Below, piece after piece: positions 3,033-21,809 of a DNA stretch of 35,176 nucleotides. Made by a program: the position numbers and the translations under genes. Positions within the stretch are counted from its first letter, which is position 1, and the number at the start of each line of letters is the position of its first letter. The notes beneath the pieces were generated by a model, which was given only the letters and a program-made list of their open reading frames with translations, was not told where the DNA came from and made no database searches. Where the stretch lies: assembly GCA_028710135.1 (NCBI GenBank), contig JAQUSS010000014.1, positions 1 to 35,176 on the forward strand, in the 5' to 3' direction. The stretch is from Gemmiger sp. Lineage in GTDB: Bacteria; Bacillota; Clostridia; Oscillospirales; Ruminococcaceae.

Positions 3033-4690
3033 AAAAAAGAAGCAACCTCGGCGTGTGCATCCGGCTGATGGGGCTGGTAAAACCGCTGGCCGGGTTTATG
3101 GTTTTGGCGGTTGCGCTGGGCCTTTTGGGGCACCTGTGCGCGGTGCTGATCCCCGTTTTGGGCAGCCTTGCCCTGCTGGATATTTTGGGGGTTACCACGC
3201 ACGGCACGGCAAACACCATTTTTGTTTTGGTGGTGGTTTTTGCGCTGCTGCGCGGCATTTTGCGCTATGGAGAGCAATATTGCAACCACTTTATCGCGTT
3301 TAAGCTGTTGGCCCTTATCCGAGATTCTGTTTTTACGGCCCTGCGCCGCCTTTGCCCCGCCAAGCTGGACGGCAAAGAAAAGGGCAACCTGATTGCGGTG
3401 ATTACCGCCGATATTGAGCTGCTGGAGGTGTTTTACGCACACACCCTCTCCCCCATTTTGATTGCCGTGTTGATGGCACTGTGCATGGGTGCCCTGCTGG
3501 GCCACCTGCACCCGCTGCTTGCCGGCATTGCCTGGGCAGCCTACCTGGCCGTGGGGGCGGTTATCCCGCTGGCGGCCACCGCCGCCACCGGCGCGGGCGG
3601 GGCGCGCCTGCGCGGGCAGGCGGGGGCGCTTAGCGCCTTTGTGCTGGATAGCCTGCGCGGCCTTGCCGAAACCCTGCAATATGGCCAGGGCGAACACCGC
3701 CTGGGCGCGCTGCTGCAAAAAACCGAAGCGCTGGCCACCAGCGAGAAAGCGATGAAGGCCCGCGCCGGTACCACCGCCGCCGTGACCCAAAGCGTTATTT
3801 TGCTTTTTGATACGCTGATGCTGGTTGGCGCGGCCACCCTGTATGGCCGGGGCAGCATCGGCTTTGCGGGGGTGCTGGTGGCCGTGGTGGCGCTGATGAG
3901 CTCCTTTGGGCCGTTTGTATCGCTGGCAAACCTTGGCGCCGGCCTGCAAAACACCTTTGCCGCCGGGAACCGCGTGCTGGATATTTTGGATGAAACCCCG
4001 GCCACCGAGGAGATTACCGGCCAGCCCGAAGTTACCTTTAACGGTGCAAAGGCCGAAAACCTAAGCTTTTCCTACGGTGGCAAGGCGGTTTTGCAGCAGG
4101 TTTGCGCCGAATTTCCGCAGGGGCAGGTGGTTGGCATTGTGGGCAAAAGCGGCAGCGGAAAATCCACCCTGCTCAAGCTGCTGATGCGCTTTTGGGCCGC
4201 GCAGGGGGGCAGCATCACCATCTCAGGGCGGCAGGTGAACGAGATAAACACCGCCAACCTGCGCGGGATGCAAAGCTACCTAACGCAAGAAACCCATTTG
4301 TTCCACGATTCCATTGCCAACAACCTGCGCATTGCCAAGCTGGATGCCACCCAGCAAGAGCTGGAAGCCGCCTGCCAAAAAGCGGCAATCCACGAATTTA
4401 TTAGGGGCTTGCCCCAGGGGTACGATACCCCGGTGGGTGAGCTGGGGGATACCCTTTCGGGCGGGGAGCGGCAGCGCCTTGGCCTTGCCCGCGCCTTTTT
4501 GCACGATGCCCCCTGGCTGCTGCTGGACGAGCCGACCAGCAATTTGGATAGCTTGAACGAAGCCTTAATTTTAAAATCCATCGCGGCGCAGCGGGGCAGC
4601 AAAACGGTTGTTTTGGTATCCCACCGGGCCTCCACCATGCGCCTGGCAAGCCGGGTGTACAGCGTTGAACGCGGAAGGCTACACGGATGA
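3029..4690 (+). CDS. ABC exporter half-transporter 2 (CydC-like, TMD-NBD fusion)
   Basis: 553 aa, partner of the upstream half-transporter. Membrane helices occupy roughly residues 1-290; the NBD carries Walker A GKSGSGKST, signature LSGGERQRLGLARAFL, Walker B LLLDEPTSNLD with the catalytic Glu, and H-loop SHR. Both NBDs keep canonical catalytic residues, so neither site looks degenerate. Start: ATG at 3029 with AAAGGAGG at 3014-3021; it overlaps the previous stop as ATGA, implying translational coupling and 1:1 production. An in-frame extension to 2945 is possible but lies inside the upstream gene. Ends with another ATGA overlap into the YgbA_NO gene. Substrate unknown; CydDC-type thiol or haem-related export is the closest family precedent. 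Confidence 0.87.
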   Translation: MKKRSNLGVCIRLMGLVKPLAGFMVLAVALGLLGHLCAVLIPVLGSLALLDILGVTTHGTANTIFVLVVVFALLRGILRYGEQYCNHFIAFKLLALIRDSVFTALRRLCPAKLDGKEKGNLIAVITADIELLEVFYAHTLSPILIAVLMALCMGALLGHLHPLLAGIAWAAYLAVGAVIPLAATAATGAGGARLRGQAGALSAFVLDSLRGLAETLQYGQGEHRLGALLQKTEALATSEKAMKARAGTTAAVTQSVILLFDTLMLVGAATLYGRGSIGFAGVLVAVVALMSSFGPFVSLANLGAGLQNTFAAGNRVLDILDETPATEEITGQPEVTFNGAKAENLSFSYGGKAVLQQVCAEFPQGQVVGIVGKSGSGKSTLLKLLMRFWAAQGGSITISGRQVNEINTANLRGMQSYLTQETHLFHDSIANNLRIAKLDATQQELEAACQKAAIHEFIRGLPQGYDTPVGELGDTLSGGERQRLGLARAFLHDAPWLLLDEPTSNLDSLNEALILKSIAAQRGSKTVVLVSHRASTMRLASRVYSVERGRLHG

Positions 4691-5025
4691 ATTTGCAAAC
4701 AAAACGCGCGCGGGAAAAAGAACTGGTAAGCGAGATGATCGCTTTGTATTGCCGCAAAAAGCACCACACAAAAAGCACCCTTTGCCCCACCTGCGCCGCG
4801 CTGAACCGCTACGCCCGGCAGCGGAGCGACCAATGCCCGTTTATGGAAACCAAAACCTTTTGCTCCAACTGCAAGGTACACTGCTACCAAGCGGATAAAC
4901 GGGCGCAAATACGGGAGGTTATGCGGTTTGCGGGGCCAAGGCTTTTCTTTATCCACCCGGTGGTGGCCCTGCGCCACGTAATCGAAACCAAAAAGGAGCA
5001 ACGAATGCTGGAGAAAACGCGATGA
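4687..5025 (+). CDS. YgbA_NO (nitrous oxide-stimulated promoter) family protein
   Basis: 112 aa, matching the YgbA_NO family (E. coli YgbA, an NsrR-controlled NO-response gene). It is cysteine rich: LYC, LCPTC, QCPF and FCSNCKVHCY give eight cysteines in the first 70 residues, arranged as if to hold a metal or Fe-S centre; the C-terminal part contains the conserved GPRLFFIHPVVALRH stretch. No signal peptide or membrane helix. It overlaps both neighbours by four bases (ATGA at 4687 and 5022), so it is made together with the exporter. The conserved pairing suggests a role in protecting or repairing metal centres, which is inference; the biochemical activity is not known. Confidence 0.85.
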   Translation: MNLQTKRAREKELVSEMIALYCRKKHHTKSTLCPTCAALNRYARQRSDQCPFMETKTFCSNCKVHCYQADKRAQIREVMRFAGPRLFFIHPVVALRHVIETKKEQRMLEKTR

Positions 5026-5426
5026 AAAAAATAATTTACATTGCCCTTGGCTGCCTGGGCGTGGGCCTGGGTGCTTTGGGCGCGGCCCTGCCGCTGCTGC
5101 CCGCCTTCCCGTTTTTGATGATGGCGGCGTTCTGCTTTGGCAAAAGCTCTGACCGGCTCAACCGCTGGTTTACCGGCACAAAGCTTTACAAAAATAACCT
5201 CGAATCCTTTGTGCAGGGCAAGGGGATGACCCTTAAAACCAAGCGGCGCATCATGCTGGTTGTCACGGCCACCATGGCCGTCGGCTTTTGGATGATGCAC
5301 CGTGTTCCGGTAGGGCGGGTGATTTTGGCCCTGGTGTGGGGGTTCCACATCCTCTACTTTATTTTTGGCATCAAAACCATCCCCGAAAAAGCCGAGCAGC
5401 CCCCGCCGGATGCCGATGCCGAATAA
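5022..5426 (+). CDS. YbaN/DUF454 family membrane protein
   Basis: 134 aa with three hydrophobic segments (about residues 4-24, 27-42 and 75-115) and the family hallmark LPLLPAFPFLMMAAFCFGKSSDRLNRWF. DUF454 proteins are small inner-membrane proteins of unknown function. It is the last gene of the coupled operon, starting within the stop of the YgbA_NO gene. The downstream 14-bp hairpin probably ends the transcript. Co-translation with the ABC exporter and the cysteine-rich protein suggests a shared process at the membrane; nothing in the sequence shows an enzymatic motif. Confidence 0.85.
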   Translation: MKKIIYIALGCLGVGLGALGAALPLLPAFPFLMMAAFCFGKSSDRLNRWFTGTKLYKNNLESFVQGKGMTLKTKRRIMLVVTATMAVGFWMMHRVPVGRVILALVWGFHILYFIFGIKTIPEKAEQPPPDADAE

Positions 5427-5564: not shown

Positions 5565-5593
5565 TCGACTACAGCCCTTGCCTGTGCTATACT
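5565..5593 (+). promoter_or_regulatory. Promoter of the GTPase-Rae1 gene
   Basis: TCGACT (5565-5570), 17-bp spacer, TATACT (5588-5593). Start of transcription would be near 5600, about 95 nt before the ATG at 5694. Upstream 5509-5562 is an almost pure pyrimidine tract. Confidence 0.6.
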
Positions 5594-5693
5594 AAAAATA
5601 CGCATCAAAATGTGCCACACCCCGGGCCGCTGCGCGGTAACCGGGGCAAACGGCTTAAAAAACAGCTGCTCAATAGGCGGGCAGGGGGAACAA

Positions 5694-8369
5694 ATGGAAC
5701 CAACAAAACATCTCTGTGCGGGGCTGCTGGCCCATGTCGATTCCGGCAAAACGACCTTATCGGAGGCACTGCTCTACCGTGCAGGGGCCATCCGCTCGCT
5801 GGGCCGGGTAGACCATCAAAACGCTTTTTTGGATACCGATTCGCTGGAAAAAGCGCGCGGCATCACCATATTTTCAAAGCAGGCGGTGCTTGCCCTGCCG
5901 GGGGTATCCCTCACCCTGTTGGATACCCCCGGCCATGTCGATTTTTCCACCGAGATGGAGCGGGTGTTGCAGGTGCTGGATTATGCCATTTTGGTGGTAA
6001 GCGGCACCGAGGGGGTGCAAAGCCACACCGAAACCCTGTGGCGGCTGCTGCGGCGGTACCACCTGCCCACCTTTGTGTTTATCAATAAGATGGATTTGCC
6101 CGGGGCCGACCGCGCCGCGCGGATGGCGGAGTTTGCCCGCCGCTTTGGCACCGGCTTTGTGGATTTTGGGGCCGATATCCCCCCGGCTGACCGGCAGGAG
6201 GCCCTTGCCATGGCCGATGATACCCTGATGGAGCGCTTATTATCGGATGGCAAGCTGGAGGATGCCGATCTTGTTGCGGCCATTGCACGGCGGCGGGTGT
6301 TCCCCTGCTGGTGTGGCTCCGCCTTGCGGCTGGACGGGGTAGATGGGCTGCTGCAAGGGCTGGCCCGCTACACCCGCACCCCGGCCCGCCACCGCAGCTT
6401 TGCGGCCAAGGTGTTTAAAATTGGGCAGGACGAGCAGGGCAACCGGCTAACCTACCTAAAGCTTACCGGCGGCGCGCTGGCGGTCAAGGCTGTGGTAGAG
6501 GGCAGCGATGCCGCCGGCCCCTGGGCCGAAAAGGCCGATGGGCTGCGGGTATATAACGGTGCCAAATACACCGCCGTGCAAACGGCCACCCCCGGCATGG
6601 TGGTTGCCGTTACCGGGCTAACCCGGGCCGTGGCGGGCCAGGGCCTTGGTGCCGAGCCGGATAGCGAGCCCCCGGTGCTGGAGCCGGTGCTTTCCTGCCG
6701 GGTGGAGCTGCCGCCCGAGGCCGACCCGGCCACCGCCCTTGCCCAGCTGCGCAGCCTGGAGCAGGAGGACCCCCAGCTCCATGTGGTGTGGAACGCCCTG
6801 CTGGGCGAAATTCACCTGCAATTGATGGGCGAGGTGCAGCTTGAAATTTTAAAAAGCCTGCTACAGCAGCGGTTTGGCCTGGCGGTAAATTTTAGCCAGG
6901 GGCATATTTTGTACAAAGAAACCATCACCCAACCCGGCGAGGGGATTGGCCATTACGAGCCGCTGCGCCACTACGCCGAGGTGCATTTGCTGCTGGAGCC
7001 GGGCGAGCCGGGCAGCGGCCTGGTGTTTGCCACCGATTGCCGGGAAGAAATTTTGGATAAAAACTGGCAGCGCCTGGTGCTGACCCACCTTGCCGAAAAG
7101 CCCCACCGGGGCGTGTTGGCCGGTGCCCCCCTGACCGATGTAAAAATCACCCTGATTGCGGGGCGGGCGCACATCAAGCACACCGAAGGGGGCGATTTCC
7201 GCCAGGCCACCTACCGGGCTGTGCGCCAGGGGCTGCGCCGGTTGCAGGCACGCGGGGCCGTGGCCCTGTTGGAGCCGATGTACACCTTCCGGCTGGAGCT
7301 ACCCGCCCCGCTGGTGGGCCGCGCCATGACCGATTTGCAGCGGATGGGTGCCACCTTTGCCCCACCCGAAACCGCCCCCACCGGCGAAACCGTGCTGCTG
7401 GTGGGGCGCGGCCCGGTGGCCACCCTGCGGGAATATCCACGCCAGGTAACGGCCTACAGCCGGGGCCTGGGGCGGCTGGCCTGCCTGCCCGCCGGGTATG
7501 CCCCCTGCCACGATGCCGAGGCCGTGGTTGCCGCCGCCCAATACGACCCTGACCGTGATTTGGACAATTCGGCAGATTCTATTTTTTGCGCGCACGGGGC
7601 GGGGTATCTTGTACGCTGGGATGAGGTGGAGGCGCATTGCCAGGTGGAAAGCGGCTACGGCAAGCCGAGCGAGGCCGAGCAAACCCAAAACCGCGCCCGC
7701 GCCGCGGCCCGCCCCGCCGTGCGGTACCAGGGCACCCTGGCCGAGGATAAGGAGCTGCTTGCCATTTTTGAGCGCACCTATGGGCCGGTAAAAAACACCG
7801 GCCCCGGCGGCAAAAATGCGCTGCACACCCGCCGCAGCCCCGCTGTGCCCGGCAATGCAGGCAATGCAGGCAATGCGGGCAACGCGGGCAATGCGGGCAA
7901 TACCGGCAGCGCAAGCAGCATACCGGCCCCGCCGCCCACCGGCCCCGAGTACCTGCTGGTAGATGGCTACAACATTATTTTTGCCTGGCAGGAGCTAAGT
8001 GCCCTTGCCCGCGAAAACCTGGATGCCGCCCGGCGGCGGCTGATGGATATTTTGTGCAACTACCGCGGCTTTTGCCGGTGCGAGGTTATTTTGGTGTTTG
8101 ATGCCTACAAAATCAAAGGCAACGTGGGCAGTGTGGAGCAATACCACAACATTAGCGTGGTGTACACCAAGGAGGCCGAAACCGCCGATATGTATATTGA
8201 AAAGGTAACCAACCGCATCGGCAAGGAGCACCGGGTGCGGGTGGCAACCTCGGACGGGATGGAGCAAATTATTATTTTGGGCCACGGCGCGCTGCGGGTA
8301 TCGGCCCGGGCCTTTGAGCAGGAGGTTGCCGCGGTTGAAAAAGAAATTCGCGGGTATCTGGGCGGGTAA
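5694..8369 (+). CDS. TetM/EF-G-like ribosomal GTPase fused to a Rae1 (NYN_YacP) endoribonuclease domain
   Basis: 891 aa. Residues 1-~690 form a translation-factor GTPase of the ribosomal-protection (TetM) type: G1 AHVDSGKTT (13-21), G2 RGIT, G3 DTPGHVDF, G4 NKMD, then domains II-V. The domain IV tip reads KHTEGGDFR where TetM has its tetracycline-displacing loop, so resistance should not be assumed. A Gly-Asn-Ala repeat linker follows, then residues 752-891 match Rae1/YacP: VDGYNIIFAW, VILVFDAYK, TKEAETADMYIE and ATSDGMEQ hold the conserved acidic residues. In Bacillus subtilis Rae1 cleaves mRNA in the ribosomal A site; both halves therefore act at the same place on the ribosome. Start: ATG 5694 with AGGGGGA at 5683-5689; an in-frame extension to 5610 lacks an RBS. 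Single-gene transcript. Confidence 0.87.
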   Translation: MEPTKHLCAGLLAHVDSGKTTLSEALLYRAGAIRSLGRVDHQNAFLDTDSLEKARGITIFSKQAVLALPGVSLTLLDTPGHVDFSTEMERVLQVLDYAILVVSGTEGVQSHTETLWRLLRRYHLPTFVFINKMDLPGADRAARMAEFARRFGTGFVDFGADIPPADRQEALAMADDTLMERLLSDGKLEDADLVAAIARRRVFPCWCGSALRLDGVDGLLQGLARYTRTPARHRSFAAKVFKIGQDEQGNRLTYLKLTGGALAVKAVVEGSDAAGPWAEKADGLRVYNGAKYTAVQTATPGMVVAVTGLTRAVAGQGLGAEPDSEPPVLEPVLSCRVELPPEADPATALAQLRSLEQEDPQLHVVWNALLGEIHLQLMGEVQLEILKSLLQQRFGLAVNFSQGHILYKETITQPGEGIGHYEPLRHYAEVHLLLEPGEPGSGLVFATDCREEILDKNWQRLVLTHLAEKPHRGVLAGAPLTDVKITLIAGRAHIKHTEGGDFRQATYRAVRQGLRRLQARGAVALLEPMYTFRLELPAPLVGRAMTDLQRMGATFAPPETAPTGETVLLVGRGPVATLREYPRQVTAYSRGLGRLACLPAGYAPCHDAEAVVAAAQYDPDRDLDNSADSIFCAHGAGYLVRWDEVEAHCQVESGYGKPSEAEQTQNRARAAARPAVRYQGTLAEDKELLAIFERTYGPVKNTGPGGKNALHTRRSPAVPGNAGNAGNAGNAGNAGNTGSASSIPAPPPTGPEYLLVDGYNIIFAWQELSALARENLDAARRRLMDILCNYRGFCRCEVILVFDAYKIKGNVGSVEQYHNISVVYTKEAETADMYIEKVTNRIGKEHRVRVATSDGMEQIIILGHGALRVSARAFEQEVAAVEKEIRGYLGG
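7852..7914 (+). repeat. 9-bp tandem repeat encoding a GNA linker
   Basis: Seven in-frame copies of a GGCAATGCA-like unit encode GNAGNAGNAGNAGNAGNTGS-type sequence between the GTPase and Rae1 domains. Like the repeat at 2175-2291 it is a frame-preserving 9-bp array in a linker. Confidence 0.8.
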
Positions 8370-8386
8370 ACCCCGCCCATTTTTTG
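8360..8386 (+). terminator. Intrinsic terminator overlapping the stop codon
   Basis: GGGCGGG (8360-8366), loop TAAAC that contains the TAA stop, CCCGCCC (8372-8378), then a T-run at 8380-8385. Compact and convincing. Confidence 0.85.
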
Positions 8387-8575: not shown

Positions 8576-8625
8576 CGCCTATATCCTATTGACATTGTAG
8601 GATATAGGCGTATAATATCCTATAG
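8576..8625 (+). promoter_or_regulatory. nifS promoter inside a 13-bp inverted-repeat operator
   Basis: TTGACA (8589-8594), 16-bp spacer, TATAAT (8611-8616). The -35 box is the spacer of a perfect inverted repeat, 8576-8588 with 8598-8610 (core ATATCCTA...TAGGATAT). A third copy of ATATCCTA sits at 8615-8622, over the -10 and start region. A repressor bound here would occlude RNA polymerase. Fe-S biogenesis operons are commonly controlled by Rrf2/IscR-type proteins; no such gene is in view, so the regulator is unknown. Confidence 0.8.
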
Positions 8626-19918: not shown

Positions 19919-19979
19919 TATCTTGTATGCGTATCTAAATTAGGTATCTAAATGGAATATTAAAGAGGTTTTGGGATTT

Positions 19980-21809
19980 ATGGTTAGAGAAAATCTTCGC
20001 AACATCGCAATTATTGCCCACGTTGACCATGGTAAGACCACCCTGGTTGATCAAATGCTGAAGCAGAGCGGTTCGTTCCGCGATAACCAGCAGGTGGCCG
20101 ACCGGGTGATGGACTCCGGCGATATCGAGCGGGAGCGCGGCATCACCATTCTGGCAAAAAACTGCTCCTGCGTTTATAAAGACGTTAAAATCAACATCGT
20201 GGATACCCCTGGCCACGCCGACTTCGGCGGTGAGGTCGAGCGTGTTTTGAAGATGGTGAACGGCGTGCTGCTCCTGGTGGATGCGGCCGAAGGCTGTATG
20301 CCCCAGACCCGTTTTGTGTTGCAAAAAGCATTGCAGCAAAACCTTTCGCTGGTAATTGCCGTCAACAAAATTGACCGCCCGGATGCCCGCATCCAGGAGG
20401 TTATTGACGAAATTTTGGAACTGCTGATGGACCTTGGCGCCACCGACGAGCAGCTGGATAGCCCGATGGTTTTCTGCTCCGGGCGCAACGGCACCGCCAG
20501 CTACGATTGGACCCACCCCGAGAAGGGCACCGACCTGCTGCCTTTGTACGACACCATTTTAAAGTACGTTGCCCCGCCCGAGGGCGAGCCGGAAGAACCG
20601 TTGCAGATGCTGGTTTCCAGCGTGGATTACAACGAGTTTGTGGGCCGGATGGGCGTTGGCCGCATCCAAAACGGCACGTTGAAGGTTGGCCAAAGCGTGC
20701 AGGTGTGCGATTGGCATAACCCCGATGTTCGCCTGACCGGGCGCATCACCAAGCTGTTTGACTTTAAGGCCGCCGGCCGCGCCCCCATCGAGAATGCCAG
20801 CGCGGGCGATATCGTGGCCTTTGCGGGCCTGCCGGATATCAACATCGGCAACACCGTTTGTGACCCCAGCAAGGTGCAGCCCCTGCCCTTTATCAAAATT
20901 AACGACCCCACTGTGGAGATGACCTTTGCCGTGAACGATAGCCCCTTTGCGGGCCGGGAGGGCAAATTTGTTACCTCCCGCCAGATTCGCGACCGGCTGT
21001 ACAAAGAGCTGCTCAAGGACGTTGCCCTCAAGGTGGAGGATTCCGCCACCAACGATTCCTTCCGGGTTATGGGCCGTGGCGAAATGCACCTGTCCATCCT
21101 GATTGAAACGATGCGCCGCGAAAACTACGAGCTACAGGTTTCGCCCCCCCACGTGTTGACCCACGAGGAGGACGGCAAAACCATGGAGCCTATGGAGCGG
21201 GTGGTTATCGATGTGCCGGAAATGTACCAGGGCAATGTTATGACGGCCCTTGGCTCCCGCAAGGCACTGCTGATGAATATGCAGCTGATGAACAGCCGCA
21301 CCCGGCTTGAGTTCCGTATGCCCAGCCGTGGCCTGTTTGGCTACCGCAGCCAGTTTTTGACCGATACCCACGGCGAAGGCGTGATGAACACCATTTTTGA
21401 TGGCTACGACGAGTGGCAGGGCGATATTTCGACCCGCTCCACCGGTTCGCTGATCAGCTTTGAAACCGGCGATGCCGTGACCTACGGGCTGTTTAACGCC
21501 CAGCAGCGCGGCGTATTGCTGGTGGATGCCGGCGAAAAGGTGTACGAGGGCCAGGTGGTTGGCTACACCCCCACCGGCGAGGATATTGCCGTCAACGTTT
21601 GCAAAACCAAACATCTGACCAATACCCGTGCCTCCGGCAGTGACGATGCCCAGCATTTGGTACCCGTAAACAAGTTTAGCCTGGAGGCCTGCCTGGAATT
21701 TTTGGCCCCGGATGAACTGCTGGAAGTCACCCCGAAAAACCTGCGTATGCGCAAGCGCATTTTGAACAACGATTTGCGGATGAAAGCATCCGGCAAGAAG
21801 AACAAATAA
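19980..21809 (+). CDS. typA: Ribosome-associated GTPase TypA/BipA
   Basis: 609 aa, full length. GTPase motifs AHVDHGKTT, RGITI, DTPGHADF and NKIDRPDAR; domain II and the EF-G-like domains III and V, and the BipA-specific C-terminal domain (ending FLAPDELLEVTPKNLRMRKRIL). TypA binds the 70S ribosome and assists 50S assembly and translation under stress. Start ATG 19980 after AAAGAGG at 19962-19968; a TTG at 19971 is in frame but too close to the RBS. Strong promoter and T-ending codons suggest high expression. Monocistronic, closed by the 21825-21865 terminator. Second translational GTPase of the window besides the Rae1 fusion. Confidence 0.96.
   Translation: MVRENLRNIAIIAHVDHGKTTLVDQMLKQSGSFRDNQQVADRVMDSGDIERERGITILAKNCSCVYKDVKINIVDTPGHADFGGEVERVLKMVNGVLLLVDAAEGCMPQTRFVLQKALQQNLSLVIAVNKIDRPDARIQEVIDEILELLMDLGATDEQLDSPMVFCSGRNGTASYDWTHPEKGTDLLPLYDTILKYVAPPEGEPEEPLQMLVSSVDYNEFVGRMGVGRIQNGTLKVGQSVQVCDWHNPDVRLTGRITKLFDFKAAGRAPIENASAGDIVAFAGLPDINIGNTVCDPSKVQPLPFIKINDPTVEMTFAVNDSPFAGREGKFVTSRQIRDRLYKELLKDVALKVEDSATNDSFRVMGRGEMHLSILIETMRRENYELQVSPPHVLTHEEDGKTMEPMERVVIDVPEMYQGNVMTALGSRKALLMNMQLMNSRTRLEFRMPSRGLFGYRSQFLTDTHGEGVMNTIFDGYDEWQGDISTRSTGSLISFETGDAVTYGLFNAQQRGVLLVDAGEKVYEGQVVGYTPTGEDIAVNVCKTKHLTNTRASGSDDAQHLVPVNKFSLEACLEFLAPDELLEVTPKNLRMRKRILNNDLRMKASGKKNK

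Follow-up and report, generated by a model that had tools for sequence, protein, structure and literature searches.

A translational GTPase fused to a Rae1-type endoribonuclease domain in Gemmiger and its relatives

The gene at positions 5694 to 8369 of a 35,176-nucleotide stretch of Gemmiger sp. DNA (GenBank assembly GCA_028710135.1, contig JAQUSS010000014.1; the whole stretch is called the window below) encodes a protein of 891 amino acids (aa) in which a translational GTPase of the EF-G/Tet type is followed by a linker and a Rae1/NYN_YacP endoribonuclease domain. The fusion is real, conserved and, among the sampled genomes, nearly exclusive with standalone Rae1. The reading favoured here, with a probability of about 0.55, is that the fusion is a lineage-specific Rae1 that would be recruited to the ribosome via its fused GTPase and would cut mRNA in the A site once the GTPase has engaged. 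EF-G and Tet factors bind the A-site region via domain IV. Rae1 has been proposed to cleave mRNA in the A site of ribosomes that have paused, but to our knowledge what directs it to one ribosome rather than another is poorly defined; the occurrence in nature of a fusion to a GTPase, with a nuclease that mostly lacks its C-terminal tail (the site of a loss-of-function change in Bacillus), makes Rae1 recruitment directly testable.

The architecture is not new, having been in print since 2015, when 'Tet' proteins with a YacP-like NYN RNase domain were described in ten clostridial species and RNase-based resistance was suggested (Atkinson 2015, PMC4342817); from architecture and lineage, those proteins are very probably the same as the present fusion. 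An initial annotation of the window was made unaware of this paper. In the literature searched, no functional study of the fusion was found and this was the only paper found to treat it; more may be in print. The 2015 report files the proteins under Tet and suggests resistance, whereas the present tree places the GTPase apart from the Tet clade, and the fusion appears as a replacement of Rae1; what is added is this replacement, the placement outside Tet and the loss of the Rae1 tail in most fusions.

The two halves of the fusion protein

As the initial annotation proposed, one polypeptide joins a TetM/EF-G-type GTPase to Rae1/YacP: the Pfam domains of both lie in a single open reading frame (ORF), whose parts are as follows.

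5694..8369, +: fusion gene, 891 aa, translational GTPase, linker and Rae1/NYN_YacP (open ORF, Pfam, alignment, AlphaFold)
5706..6374, +: G domain, residues 5-227, with AHVDSGKTT, DTPGH and NKMD kept (Pfam GTP_EFTU, E 1.2e-46; alignment)
6681..6896, +: domain III, residues 330-401 (Pfam EFG_III)
6903..7238, +: domain IV, residues 404-515 (Pfam EFG_IV, E 1.1e-17)
6942..6983, +: domain IV loop I, GIGHYEPLRHYAEV, residues 417-430, resembling neither Tet nor EF-G (alignment)
7170..7202, +: domain IV loop III, HIKHTEGGDFR, residues 493-503; the Tet(M/O/W) counterpart is YYSPVSTPADFR (alignment)
7266..7514, +: domain V, residues 525-607 (Pfam EFG_C)
7515..7658, +: C-terminal extension of the subfamily, residues 608-655, with DSIFCAHGAGYLVRW (alignments, profile A2)
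7665..7946, +: linker, predicted to be flexible, residues 658-751 (AlphaFold confidence, alignment, tandem repeat)
7953..8351, +: Rae1/NYN_YacP domain, residues 754-886 (Pfam; PDB alignment)

The GTPase half has the features of an EF2-family translational GTPase (GTP_EFTU and domains II to V, with G motifs intact and the catalytic H81 invariant), although the Pfam score of domain II (EF-G_D2) is below cut-off. Its subfamily has a loop I of the pattern G-x-GH-x-EPL-x-HYAEV, a loop III reading KHTEGGDFR where Tet proteins have YSPVSTPADFR, and an extension of the type DSVFCAHGAG...W, just past which the unfused members terminate (alignments, profile A2). The tip of domain IV had been said to differ from that of TetM, and alignment with Tet(M/O/W), with an EF-G-like host protein and with an OtrA-like protein bears this out: the YSPVST-type loop III of Tet(M/O/W) is absent and HIKHTEGGDFR stands in its place. 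Residues H496, T497, G499, G500, D501, F502 and R503 are invariant in alignment A1, 35 fusions picked by a long NYN frame, on which the statement about the tip rests; the constancy of these stretches in alignment A4 is circular, because the search of named genomes used the patterns H[FY]EPLRHY and KHT[EQ]GGDF.

With Tet(M), Tet(O) and Tet(W) the fusion shares an EF-G-like layout, about 28% identity and the G motifs, and it differs from them in the domain IV loops and the C-terminus. The best NCBIfam model for its GTPase is tet_protect, at 372.6 bits, less than half of the curated cut-off of 775; no protein of the host genome (88% complete) lies above that cut-off. In a 68-row tree built by a quick method, Tet(M/O/W) and the OtrA-like protein, the only four Tet references, form one clade with support 99, and the fused rows fall outside it. 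Membership of the Tet protection proteins was rejected on score, tip and tree, none of which supports the Tet label. These three also speak against the public naming of at least one member as a tetracycline resistance protein, the Agathobacter rectalis copy being labelled TetM/TetW/TetO/TetS family; the record of another member reads 'translation factor GTPase family protein'.

The C-terminal half matches positions 1-135 of the 166-position NYN_YacP profile with an E-value of 2.5e-48, its score of 164.7 bits exceeding the cut-off of 24.6, the outcome of the domain search that the initial annotation had called for. The Rae1 motifs quoted there are in place and the active-site residues are kept: D757, N760, D803, D832 and D854 align with D7, N10, D53, D81 and D104 of Bacillus subtilis YacP (chain positions, 5mq8/5mq9) and are invariant in both the 35-sequence and a 54-sequence alignment. 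The Bacillus protein differs in that the NYN domain of the fusion sits C-terminal to a GTPase, that the Gemmiger copy lacks the C-terminal tail, and that the pair yacO (rlmB homologue)/rae1 reported for Bacillus (PMC6613710) is not found around the fusion.

The tail separates most fused from standalone copies. After the NYN core, a tail ending h-x-x-h-R is present in 30/30 standalone proteins (mostly best-scoring matches, and including the one from genome G479 discussed below) and in 26/118 fused ones (L184 and L208, with frame breaks, and L136, at a contig end, excluded from the count); the Gemmiger fusion ends in GYLGG, with the motif absent. Among the lower-scoring matches of the class sample described below, profile position 159 or beyond (of 166) is reached by 44/45 standalone-length frames and 8/53 fusion-length frames. 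A first count put the mean net charge of the tail at +3.3 for standalone (n=32, among them two broken fusions and the G479 case) and -0.5 for fused copies (n=118). In alignment, the motif falls on the terminal EKLRR of B. subtilis YacP, whose last arginine is chain position 166. A change at this residue, R166P, was isolated in B. subtilis rae1 as an efp suppressor, and its authors group it with loss-of-function alleles (PMC6613710). We infer that the Rae1 tail binds the ribosome.

AlphaFold2, run on 54 aligned sequences, gave a mean predicted local distance difference test score (pLDDT) of 84.1 and a predicted template modelling score of 0.60, with the GTPase and NYN domains folded with confidence and the C-terminal extension folded to about residue 650. 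In the linker, pLDDT is below 50 at 658-683 and 696-744, and a helix is predicted at 682-696, where the alignment has a conserved (E)LLAIFERTYG stretch. The 50 best Foldseek matches in PDB are all EF-G-type chains (TM-score by target 0.55-0.78, two at 0.38); the short NYN domain is not represented among these 50. A tandem repeat with a 9-base unit (7849-7917, +) encodes a GNA-rich stretch of the linker that the other 34 aligned fusions lack.

Distribution and history of fused and separate forms

The initial annotation had supposed that relatives might carry similar fusions, and they do: the whole fusion lies in one ORF in 39/39 regions of other genomes, chosen by a long NYN frame (a fortieth fetched region, a standalone copy, was taken on purpose and stands outside this count), and in 74/80 named loci, one of them open at a contig end. 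These loci are the best 80 of at least 595 relatives (at least 598 stretches in named genomes) and so lean to close relatives; they include Gemmiger formicilis, Hungatella hathewayi, Dorea phocaeensis, Pseudoflavonifractor phocaeensis and Anaerovorax odorimutans. Among the remaining loci, L232 has a frame break beyond which the fusion continues, and each of L184, L199, L208, L220 and L238 is interrupted by a break or an early stop or runs into a contig end. That the fusion is an artefact of assembly or annotation, for which nothing speaks except the fragmentation of the Gemmiger genome (229 contigs), is refuted by these two counts, the 39 regions including some from single-contig genomes; its probability is negligible. 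Two loci deserve a note of their own: L269 (genome G458, a single contig) has one in-frame stop inside the GTPase, which may mean a pseudogene, recoding or an error, and in L184 (5791-6384) the NYN frame overlaps the end of the GTPase frame, either a true split or a sequencing error.

In the genome counts, fusion length was taken by proxy as an open frame of at least 800 aa. NYN_YacP is present in 249/391 genomes of the class sample, of which 126 have a fusion-length frame, 107 a standalone-length frame, 14 an intermediate one, one a weak match and one both forms. The single genome with both compares with about 35 expected under independence across the 391 genomes (relatedness not corrected for), and it therefore appears that the fusion normally replaces standalone Rae1. 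The Gemmiger genome itself, 88% complete, has the fusion as its sole NYN_YacP. In the order sample NYN_YacP occurs in 78/245 genomes, in 73 of them within a frame of at least 800 aa; G107, checked among the other five, has its NYN at a contig end. G377, G439 and G478 each have a second match that is weak, partial and below cut-off; G374 has two fusion-length frames. Of the odd cases checked, G324 is cut by a contig end and G563 has a standalone NYN within a long frame. In a phylum-wide sample, a hinge profile matched 22/299 genomes (18 fusion-length, 2 unfused and 2 weak).

The unfused GTPases of the subfamily are encoded by ORFs of 632-724 aa (the weak G009 match excluded) in several clostridial families; those aligned have the same tip and the same DSVFC...G...W-type extension as the fusion, and end right after it, with neither linker nor NYN domain. 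An unfused subfamily GTPase and a separate Rae1 occur together in 14/62 genomes with standalone-length Rae1 (of 63 such genomes listed, G461 is omitted), which counts towards the favoured reading.

For the trees, the fused rows from named loci were thinned to one in three and pieces with fewer than 500 residues of GTPase were dropped, which left 108 rows. The 68-row GTPase tree omits eight locus ids that were broken, cut or duplicate, leaves out every second one of the remaining fused rows and adds the Gemmiger sequence; the NYN tree comprises 67/102 rows, its fused rows halved after the one-in-three thinning. In the former, the fused GTPases form one clade (support 100 in the Shimodaira-Hasegawa-like approximate likelihood ratio test) within which two unfused rows are nested, L123 probably being a loss and L220 a break. 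L123 (genome G239) comes from a close relative of the same family; its GTPase ends soon after the extension and NYN_YacP was not found in the genome, where the nuclease has likely been lost. In the latter, the fused NYN domains group at support 98, together with a contig-end fragment (L136) and the standalone NYN of G479. That genome (L160, L151) has this NYN, grouping with the fused ones, as well as an unfused subfamily GTPase, and is likely a case of fission of the fusion.

A possible mode of action and the alternatives

A joint ribosome-directed role of the two modules is likely, because both catalytic sites are kept, the tip differs from that of TetM, the fusion is conserved and it is normally the sole Rae1 of its genome. 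Ribosome binding, A-site cleavage, the sequence of steps and whatever makes the ribosome pause are inferred. The GTPase in its GTP form would bind the factor site of a paused ribosome, where the domain IV tip would probe or clear the A site; GTP hydrolysis would then withdraw domain IV, and the Rae1 domain, tethered by a flexible linker of about 90 residues, could enter the emptied A site and cut the mRNA, the cut message and the ribosome passing to decay and rescue. This hand-over, GTPase first and nuclease second, is proposed because one A site would not hold both modules at once; alternatively, the nuclease might act on a neighbouring collided ribosome. The initial annotation's sequence of recognition followed by cutting is supported in part, but it left the hand-over step unstated. 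Frequent loss of the tail, taken with the replacement pattern, suggests that it is now the GTPase that does the recruiting. A broader proposal, offered tentatively and at somewhat less than even odds, is of a widespread GTPase class that would hand a tethered endonuclease into the A site, with hydrolysis timing cleavage, a one-protein machine for quality control or drug response that would have taken the place of a freely diffusing Rae1 in gut Clostridia.

Several observations weigh against a lineage-specific Rae1 recruited by its GTPase. Both domain IV and Rae1 would enter the A site, and their co-occupancy of it is sterically unlikely. Among 88 order genomes with a hinge-profile match, 12 (one of them a weak, EF-G-like case) have only an unfused GTPase and no NYN_YacP, so that the GTPase is of use by itself; 47/62 genomes with standalone Rae1 have no subfamily GTPase, and Rae1 therefore does not, as a rule, depend on one. 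That each part exists without the other suggests that each can work alone. NYN_YacP is missing altogether from 167/245 order genomes, which makes the function dispensable. The tail motif persists in the 26 fusions counted above. When the 36 fused NYN rows were held strictly together, the approximately unbiased test gave p 0.0565; with this value, and with a standalone G479 copy lying within the fused group, the NYN part cannot be called strictly monophyletic. The suggestion of a self-contained system holds only in part, since unfused GTPases of the subfamily occur both in genomes with a separate Rae1 and in genomes with none.

The same unfused GTPases without Rae1, the likely fission in G479 and the long linker predicted to be disordered would suit two independent functions on one chain, fused only for co-production and not mechanically coupled. 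This is doubtful, given that most fusions examined have lost the Rae1 tail, which suggests dependence on the partner, and that the fusion is kept across many families. Antibiotic protection, in which the GTPase would, like Tet(M), dislodge a drug from the A site and a second action would come from the RNase, has been proposed in print (PMC4342817), and it draws on TetO and TetM being among the nearest solved relatives by sequence and on the name of the A. rectalis copy. It is nonetheless unlikely: besides the tet_protect score, which bears on tetracycline, the YSPVST tip is replaced by a nearly fixed different one, the four Tet references form a separate clade, and the fusion is widespread and has no recurrent neighbours; moreover, of 1220 plasmid records matching the query only 2 cover at least 80% of it, and the fusion-bearing ones identified, from Monoglobus and Agathobacter, are both large and typed non-mobilizable. 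Protection from a drug other than tetracycline may apply. A role in ribosome biogenesis or in rRNA or tRNA maturation, the GTPase bringing the nuclease to ribosomal RNA, would accord with the maturation function proposed for the NYN domain (PMC4342817), but the present domain belongs with Rae1, whose cleavage of mRNA has been reported to depend on the ribosome (PMC10100781; PMC12320835), and such a role is very unlikely.

Gene signals and neighbourhood

An alternative in-frame ATG at 5610 would add 28 residues; alignment and the AGGGGGA just upstream favour a start at 5694. The signals around the gene are these.

5565..5593, +: promoter-like site, TCGACT - 17 - TATACT, with TG before the second hexamer (consensus scan, 9/12 matches; weak evidence)
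5683..5689, +: Shine-Dalgarno-like AGGGGGA ahead of the 5694 ATG (read from sequence)
8359..8379, +: terminator-like hairpin with a T run (consensus scan)

With a terminator-like hairpin at its end and promoter-like and Shine-Dalgarno-like sites of its own, the gene is probably monocistronic. Within flanks of at most about 5 kb, no gene family lies beside the fusion in more than 14/113 loci; a self-sufficient gene would be expected to show this pattern, and an operon partner was rejected on this count. A known defence system was likewise rejected (no PADLOC match at 1e-5), as was an attenuator-type leader, the structure of the leader RNA not being unusual (fold z-score -0.59).

Immediately upstream of the fusion are YgbA_NO and DUF454 genes (4687-5426, +). 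Downstream, a TTGACA-16-TATAAT promoter with a 12/12 match (8589-8616, +) precedes genes for a class-V aminotransferase (cysteine desulfurase-like) and NifU_N. Farther away lie TypA/BipA, the second translational GTPase of the window (19971-21809, +), and a 6S RNA (RF00013; 14266-14454, +), the sole Rfam match in the window, at 57.5 bits against a gathering score of 46.4.

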